A stretch of DNA of 34,140 nt from Thiobacillus sp. Lineage in GTDB: Bacteria > Pseudomonadota > Gammaproteobacteria > Burkholderiales > Thiobacillaceae. The position numbers and the translations under genes are program-made. Positions within the stretch are counted from its first letter, which is position 1. The number at the start of each line of letters is the position of its first letter. The notes below the pieces were generated by a model that did no database searches, had not been told where the DNA came from, and was given only the letters and a program-made list of their open reading frames with translations. Location of the stretch: positions 1-34,140 of the forward strand of contig JAIBFE010000241.1 of the NCBI GenBank assembly GCA_019459705.1, read 5' to 3'. Of the stretch, positions 8,058 to 8,921 are shown piece by piece.

Positions 8058-8084
8058 TAAAGTTGCTTCTGTCCTCGCCGCTAA
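8058..8084 (+). promoter_or_regulatory. Candidate sigma-28 (FliA) promoter TAAAGTTG-N11-GCCGCTAA
   Basis: Direct read: TAAAGTTG CTTCTGTCCTC GCCGCTAA; consensus TAAAGTTT-N11-GCCGATAA, 2 mismatches in 16, exact 11-bp spacer, 53 bp upstream of the ATG at 8137. Confidence 0.75.
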
Positions 8085-8136
8085 CTTGTTACGTAACCGT
8101 GGGCGAGGTGCCCCGGCACAGGCAGCAAGGACAACA

Positions 8137-8520
8137 ATGAGCCCGGAACACAAGATCCAGCCGACCCCGCGCCGCATCAATCACGCCACCGTGATGATGA
8201 GCGAGGCGGCCCAGCTCGACGACATCGCCGCCCAACTGATGGCAGTGCAGCGCCACTGGAACGATCCCGACCGCGAATTCCATCTGGCCGCTGCGCTGGC
8301 GGCCAGCCGTAGCGCCTGGCATGCCATTCAGACCGCGCTGGCCGAAGGTGTGCTGACGCTGCCGCCGGATGTGCAGCACAACGTGCTGATTCTGTCGGTG
8401 TATGCCGACAGCAAAATCAATATCTGCGAAATCAGCCCCAGCGCCGACGTGCTGGGCAGCCTCATTTCCCTTACCCGCACCCTGGCGGGCAGCCTGAAGG
8501 AATGGCGGGTGGCGGCATGA
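8137..8520 (+). CDS. FlaF-like flagellar regulatory protein (putative)
   Basis: MSPEHKIQPTPRRINHATVMMSEAAQLDDIAAQLMAVQRHW...ALAASRSAWHAIQTALAEGVLTLPPDVQHNVLILSVYADSKINICEISPSADVLGSLISLTRTLAGSL; residue pattern matches FlaF (A-NR-LW...LP...R..I+.LS+.V......L+..NR.+..GL). Supported by the sigma-28-like promoter. Confidence 0.62.
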   Translation: MSPEHKIQPTPRRINHATVMMSEAAQLDDIAAQLMAVQRHWNDPDREFHLAAALAASRSAWHAIQTALAEGVLTLPPDVQHNVLILSVYADSKINICEISPSADVLGSLISLTRTLAGSLKEWRVAA

Positions 8521-8574
8521 GTCACCCGGCGAGGGCCCCGCGCAGCGGGATCGACGGCCAGACGAATGCCGCCC
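8515..8574. repeat. 60-bp perfect direct repeat, copy 1
   Basis: GCATGAGTCACCCGGCGAGGGCCCCGCGCAGCGGGATCGACGGCCAGACGAATGCCGCCC; identical to 8626-8685; internal hairpin CCCGC-GCA-GCGGG. Confidence 0.97.
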
Positions 8575-8921
8575 AAGGCCGAATTGGGGAGGGTGAATTT
8601 ATTACGATTCCTCAAGAGGCCGAGCGCATGAGTCACCCGGCGAGGGCCCCGCGCAGCGGGATCGACGGCCAGACGAATGCCGCCCTGGGAGAAAACGACA
8701 GGATCACGTTGAGGGCTGCGCCCAATCAATTCAACTTGCCCGTTGCTGCAGTGGATGTCGGCACCGTGGTGCGCCCGGGCCGTGTTCGCAACCGCACCAA
8801 GACCGAGACGGACGAAAAGATCAAGAAACCCGCCGACGGCGTGCGCAAGAAATCGCCGCCTGCCCGCAAGGCCCCGGCACGCGGGCGTTACGTCGACGAA
8901 TACGCGCGCCCCGCCTGCTAG
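8517..8921 (+). CDS. Hypothetical protein with duplicated MSHPARAPRSGIDGQTNAA segment and basic C-terminal tail
   Basis: Open frame, ATGA overlap with the upstream gene; alternative start at 8628 (second repeat copy). The N-terminal half is mostly repeat-derived, so protein status is uncertain. Confidence 0.45.
   Translation: MSHPARAPRSGIDGQTNAAQGRIGEGEFITIPQEAERMSHPARAPRSGIDGQTNAALGENDRITLRAAPNQFNLPVAAVDVGTVVRPGRVRNRTKTETDEKIKKPADGVRKKSPPARKAPARGRYVDEYARPAC
8626..8685. repeat. 60-bp perfect direct repeat, copy 2
   Basis: Identical to 8515-8574; offset 111 bp; flanks not similar. Confidence 0.97.

Follow-up and report, generated by a model that had tools for sequence, protein, structure and literature searches.

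The FliA/FlgM sigma/anti-sigma switch is the textbook signal that the flagellar hook is complete. Among proteins tied to flagellar-type export, Caulobacter FlaF binds all flagellins and serves as their secretion chaperone (PMC7591256). Export genes may also be kept without a flagellum. In non-flagellated Lysobacter enzymogenes, retained export-gate and ATPase genes affect twitching and can export flagellin (PMC7277350). Tomography of many species has shown a hat-shaped structure at the inner membrane that is linked to flagellar export proteins (PMC9380563). Here, a flaF gene was analyzed in a 34,140-nucleotide stretch of Thiobacillus DNA (contig JAIBFE010000241.1; this whole stretch is called the window below). 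Sequence comparison suggests that Thiobacillus carries a second flagellum-type exporter (system 2) besides or instead of its flagellum (system 1), and that flaF is the strongest target of the sigma/anti-sigma switch of system 2.

An apparatus in which neither hook nor filament was detected apparently retains the switch, whose target promoter is nearly invariant. This raises the questions of what the export signal reports without a hook and of what cargo a minimal flagellar exporter secretes. System 2 resembles the Lysobacter case in retaining export-gate and ATPase genes without a flagellum. It differs in having its own FliF/FliG, FliA2, FlgM2 and FlaF-X, X being the product of an adjoining gene, and in occurring alongside a flagellum in most species. 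The Lysobacter text, as far as available, mentions no sigma/anti-sigma circuit, and a filament-less system equipped with a FliA/FlgM pair of its own is described neither there nor in the available hat-structure text. The secretin-less non-flagellar type III secretion system of Myxococcales, cited in PMC9380563, is likewise reduced and has no extracellular tube, whereas the FliF, FlhB and FliP proteins of system 2 score as flagellar and not as SctJ/SctU/SctR. System 2 is not described in the open-licence literature searched on rod-less or filament-less flagellar systems or on Thiobacillus flagellar genes.

The flaF-X locus and its promoter

The locus consists of the following features, where dN/dS is the ratio of nonsynonymous to synonymous substitution rates.

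8058 to 8065, + strand: -35 box TAAAGTTG of a sigma-28 promoter, from consensus match and conservation across loci (1.7-2.0 bits per base)
8077 to 8084, + strand: -10 box GCCGCTAA of the same promoter after an 11-base spacer, from consensus match and conservation across loci
8091 to 8136, + strand: putative leader, partly conserved (CGTAACCGTGGGC...), its start placed from the promoter; AAGGA ribosome site at 8127-8131
8137 (ATG) to 8520 (stop), + strand: flaF, 127 amino acids, predicted four-helix bundle (PF07309, 34.1 bits; 45 Thiobacillus loci; structure model)
8517 to 8921, + strand: gene X, 134 amino acids, basic, with a variable N-terminus and a conserved C-terminus ending RGRYVDEYARPA (overlap, dN/dS, alignment)

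The original prediction read the sequence TAAAGTTG-N11-GCCGCTAA as a FliA site in front of an isolated FlaF-like gene. The site matches the consensus TAAAGTTT-N11-GCCGATAA at 14 of 16 positions with the exact spacer. It is the only FliA-consensus match with three or fewer mismatches on either strand of the window, as compared to 0.06 in shuffled sequence. A scan of one genome per species (84,980 species) returned 45 flaF loci, whose titles name Thiobacillus or carry broader or discordant labels of metagenome-assembled genomes. Both boxes are letter-perfect at 39 of these loci, 38 of which also keep the N11 spacing. Across 40 distinct orthologous promoters, nearly all box bases hold 1.5-2.0 bits, as compared to 0.1-1.45 bits in the spacer. 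Consensus boxes at N11 spacing are conserved above background, and a real, conserved sigma-28 promoter for flaF is well supported. A slightly widened site pattern gave exactly one match in each of six Thiobacillus genomes searched. Five of these matches stand in front of an intact flaF; the one in G015, with a spacer of 12, precedes a flaF lacking its middle. Other promoter matches with two mismatches that recur across genomes (for example TAAAGGTGCTCGAGGAACCGCCGTTAA) were judged by their recurrence and letters to be probable coding-sequence matches and were rejected. The stretch past the promoter, at about 8085-8130 of the window, is likewise conserved (CGTAACCGTGGGCGAGGTGCC), which suggests an RNA or protein site in the leader. 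An Rfam search returned nothing but a sub-threshold small RNA match on the opposite strand.

The FlaF-family identity of the open reading frame was confirmed together with the site, its PF07309 score exceeding the gathering cut-off of 23.6 (E 3e-8). By its scores the window FlaF is a family member that does not reach equivalog status (31 bits vs 91 for NCBIfam NF009435). FlaF alone was matched in Pfam, with no FliS match, and the FlaF profile found nothing relevant among Protein Data Bank (PDB) sequences. Of 36 genus genomes, 32 gave a FlaF match, in single copy in all but one of these, and the median dN/dS of flaF is 0.25. The host is a betaproteobacterium, as had been supposed, and flaF does lie far from other flagellar genes. 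No flagellar gene adjoins it, and it is present in genomes without flagellin. It is not isolated, however: its stop codon overlaps the start codon of a second conserved small gene, X (ATGA), at all 45 loci. Thiobacillus FlaF shares with Caulobacter FlaF the Pfam family, a similar length, a helical fold and a tie to flagellar-type export. It differs in its score of about 30 bits, its lack of linkage to flagellin, its sigma-28 promoter, its retention in genomes without flagellin and its overlap with X.

The conserved C-terminal part of X has a dN/dS of 0.14, as compared to about 2 in its other two frames, and the alignment holds an invariant RGRYVDEYA near the C-terminal end. No Pfam or NCBIfam family matched X, and the protein is predicted to be disordered, with no secondary structure. 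Type III substrates usually have an unstructured N-terminal export signal and a C-terminal chaperone site. Because these traits are usual and X is predicted to be unstructured, X is the likeliest client of FlaF, and we infer that it is most likely the client or partner of this protein.

A second flagellar-type system in Thiobacillus

The genome that holds the window has two fliA genes above cut-off and flagellin-family matches, and two fliA genes occur in most of the genus (TIGR02479 above cut-off). The first stands in the order flhB-flhA-flhF-flhG-fliA-motCD near flhDC. It belongs to system 1, the ordinary flagellum, with FlhDC, FliA1, FlgM1, FliS and flagellin. The flagellin type varies among Thiobacillus species, being either long (near 160 bits) or short (about 210-270 amino acids, near 75-87 bits). 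The second fliA stands in another flhB-flhA-flhF-flhG-fliA set, which adjoins malic enzyme and succinate dehydrogenase genes, and FliA1 and FliA2 form separate clades in a tree (support 100/100).

System 2 is unlinked to the window and, from Pfam matches, has its own FliF/G/H/I/J/O/P/Q/R, FlhA, shortened FlhB, FlhF, FliA2 and FlgM2, so that the export gate, ATPase complex, MS-ring and FliG are all represented. Its second cluster adjoins dapA and reads fliF, G, H, I, J, an open reading frame without a family, fliO, P, Q, R; the fliP2 cluster is also present in G035. In NCBIfam, FliF2, FlhB2 and FliP2 score as flagellar and fall below the injectisome families (FliF2 72 vs 162 for SctJ, FlhB2 120 vs 358 for SctU, FliP2 165 vs 209 for SctR). 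Close order-level relatives of FliP2 were found in the genus (90%) and in the same-family genome G265 (61%), in the same neighbourhood, and the remaining order-level matches, near 50%, look like ordinary FliP. FlhB2 is 256-261 amino acids long and is covered by the family model only to about 241-248 of 335 positions, with no match to the switch domain. The FlhB2 genes at L113:4258-5028 and in L082, L084 and L086 lack the cytoplasmic domain in which the export switch normally resides. The conserved 155-amino-acid open reading frame between fliJ2 and fliO2, the usual fliK-L-M-N place (L108:10211-10675; also L103, L106 and L245), matched no Pfam or NCBIfam family.

Flagellated genomes have a single set of five proteins with Flg_bbr_C, which marks rod, hook and hook-filament proteins; no match was obtained in G015, G028, G035, G020 or G003. 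No rod, hook or filament gene was detected for system 2, the genome-wide searches not extending to FliE, FlgB, FliD, FliM/FliN and FlgN. In the stretches of system 2 that were read, no FliE, FlgB, FliM/FliN or FliD came up, with no genome-wide search aimed at them.

Three nearly complete genomes (G015, G028 and G035; 97-99% complete) separate the two systems, as searches found no flagellin, FliS, axial proteins, FlhA1, FliA1 or FlgM1 in any of them. G028 and G035 nevertheless keep flaF, an intact promoter, FlhA2, FlgM2 and FliA2, the paralog belonging to system 2 and the only FliA in these genomes. Because flaF, its promoter, FliA2 and FlgM2 are kept where system 1 is missing, flaF follows system 2 and not the flagellum, and its membership in system 2 is well supported by gene content. 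G009 (75% complete) has neither system and no flaF. System 2 is present but FlaF was not matched in G012 and G022 (81-87% complete). In G015, flaF is broken and X and FlgM2 are retained, and in G003 (8% contamination) a FliS match remains. Judged from these genomes, the co-retention of flaF and system 2 is strong but not perfect. The proposal that flaF is a class III member of the flagellar regulon is thus supported in part: a FlaF gene with a sigma-28 promoter is present, but it is kept in G028 and G035 without an ordinary flagellum.

The anti-sigma factor follows the same pattern, with two FlgM genes (PF04316) in flagellated genomes and FlgM2 alone in the others. FlgM2 passes the TIGR03824 equivalog cut-off (66.1 vs 40.75) and matches a FlgM chain whose structure was solved with FliA; FliA2 likewise passes its NCBIfam cut-off. 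A sigma-28-like N11 site lies at an equal distance 5' of flgM2 in seven genomes and is weaker than the flaF site. It reads TAAAGAA..GCCG[AT]TAA in four of them and, weaker still, TAAGGTTT..GCCGTAT in three. Upstream of flhB2 and fliF2, no sigma-28 site and no convincing sigma-54 site was found, and conserved TGCTAGACT and TGGTTATAAT sequences there suggest sigma-70-like -10 boxes. With sigma-28-like sites at flaF and flgM2 and sigma-70-like sequences at flhB2 and fliF2, the recognised output of FliA2 would be flaF-X and flgM2, and further, weaker targets may have been overlooked. System 2 thus resembles the FliA/FlgM checkpoint in having FliA2 and FlgM2 above family cut-offs and sigma-28-like N11 sites at flaF and flgM2. 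It differs in lacking a detected rod, hook and filament and in having only two recognised target operons.

Candidate mechanism and alternative readings

The promoter, the operon layout, the selection on both genes, the co-retention with system 2 and the family membership of FliA2 and FlgM2 can be read from sequence. They point to a mechanism that we consider probable, with some reserve, in which export through a flagellar apparatus without a filament is sensed by FliA2/FlgM2, which then turns on FlaF, as chaperone, and X, as its probable client. flaF-X would be a two-gene operon read by RNA polymerase with a sigma-28 factor, most likely FliA2 of system 2, also where FliA1 is present. By analogy to the flagellar checkpoint, FlgM2 would keep FliA2 inactive until the exporter functions. 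FlgM2 would then itself be exported, and the freed FliA2 would turn on flaF-X and flgM2. FlaF may act as an export chaperone, as do FliS and Caulobacter FlaF, with X as its candidate client or partner. The flagellar assembly checkpoint seems to have been retained for a task other than swimming. A wider claim is made tentatively, namely that a flagellar-type type III secretion system that has shed rod, hook and filament yet keeps a full FliA/FlgM switch for sensing export serves the genus as a dedicated device for protein secretion or signalling, the entire recognised output of the switch being FlaF, X as a new disordered exported protein, and FlgM2.

The chaperone role draws on a structure model of FlaF, a four-helix bundle with a predicted local distance difference test (pLDDT) score of 83.5. 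In a Foldseek comparison to the PDB, the top six matches to this model were FliS structures (template modelling score 0.55-0.65, probability 0.99-1.00). FliS is thus the closest solved structure, although the two proteins show no significant sequence likeness and a true FliS coexists with FlaF in flagellated Thiobacillus.

Several observations weigh against the FliA2/FlgM2 mechanism. None of the Foldseek E-values for FlaF and FliS is lower than 0.13, and small helix bundles look alike, so the structural likeness is suggestive only. In flagellated strains, FliA1 could read the flaF site as well. G020 (79% complete) has flaF and FliA1, and FliA2 was not found there. In G015 (L097), flaF has an internal deletion that leaves 55 amino acids, behind the spacer of 12, and X is intact; FlaF is therefore not strictly required for X. 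This genome is a natural test of whether X depends on FlaF. X and FlaF emerge as a candidate client-chaperone pair, and the Thiobacillus species that have or lack the ordinary flagellum form a natural comparison set.

The alternative closest to the original prediction places flaF among the class III genes of the ordinary flagellum, read by FliA1 and with a product that regulates or escorts flagellin. The FlaF family match and the sigma-28 consensus fit this reading, flagellin promoters carry a similar -35 (C[AG]AAGTTG) and a GCCGA -10, and a flagellum is present in most genomes that bear flaF. It is nonetheless unlikely, as G028 and G035 have no flagellin, FliA1 or axial proteins and still retain flaF with its promoter. 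In addition, FliS is found in flagellated Thiobacillus genomes, so FlaF is not needed there as a flagellin chaperone. The order relative G055 presents a different arrangement (G055:C1:610924-621178): a FlaF scoring 100 bits lies between flagellin-family genes and FliS was not found in that genome, which fits FlaF replacing FliS there. From its gene neighbourhood, G055 is an apparent case of canonical FlaF use outside the alphaproteobacteria.

System 2 might instead have been recruited to another envelope machine, such as the type IV pilus, as proposed in Lysobacter, or nanotubes, with FlaF-X modulating it. The presence of flhA and pilT among Thiobacillus biofilm transcripts (PMC10287647) is consistent with such a role. 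We doubt this alternative: the stretches that were read showed no pilus genes linked to system 2, with no search aimed at such a link.

FlaF and X could also form a pair like FlgN and FlgM, in which a disordered X regulates FliA2 or another factor, FlaF escorts X and the operon serves mainly feedback and not cargo export. In enterics, flgM-flgN is such a class III pair, a small disordered regulator with a helical chaperone, and X is small, basic and predicted to be unstructured. X shows no similarity to FlgM, however, and the true FlgM2 is encoded elsewhere, which makes this pairing rather improbable.

That system 2 is the decaying remnant of a lost second flagellum, with flaF-X left over, is very unlikely despite the shortened FlhB, the axial genes not found and the truncated flaF of G015, since system 2 genes occur in all but one genus genome searched, flaF and X are under purifying selection behind nearly invariant promoter boxes, and G265, a distinct member of the family, has a related cluster with the same neighbouring genes.

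Length variation of gene X

In most relatives, X is 66-91 amino acids long. In the window, its 5' part contains two exact 60-bp copies that belong to a 111-bp unit.

8515 to 8574, + strand: repeat copy 1, 60 bp exact (111-bp unit), 5' part of X
8626 to 8685, + strand: repeat copy 2, 60 bp exact (111-bp unit), 5' part of X; relatives have 0 to 3 copies

The 111-bp unit (MSHPARAPRSGIDGQ...) is in frame and occurs in 0 to 3 tandem copies, as observed in the window and in L007, L021, L167, L170 and L209. Among the loci compared, it was seen at gene X only.
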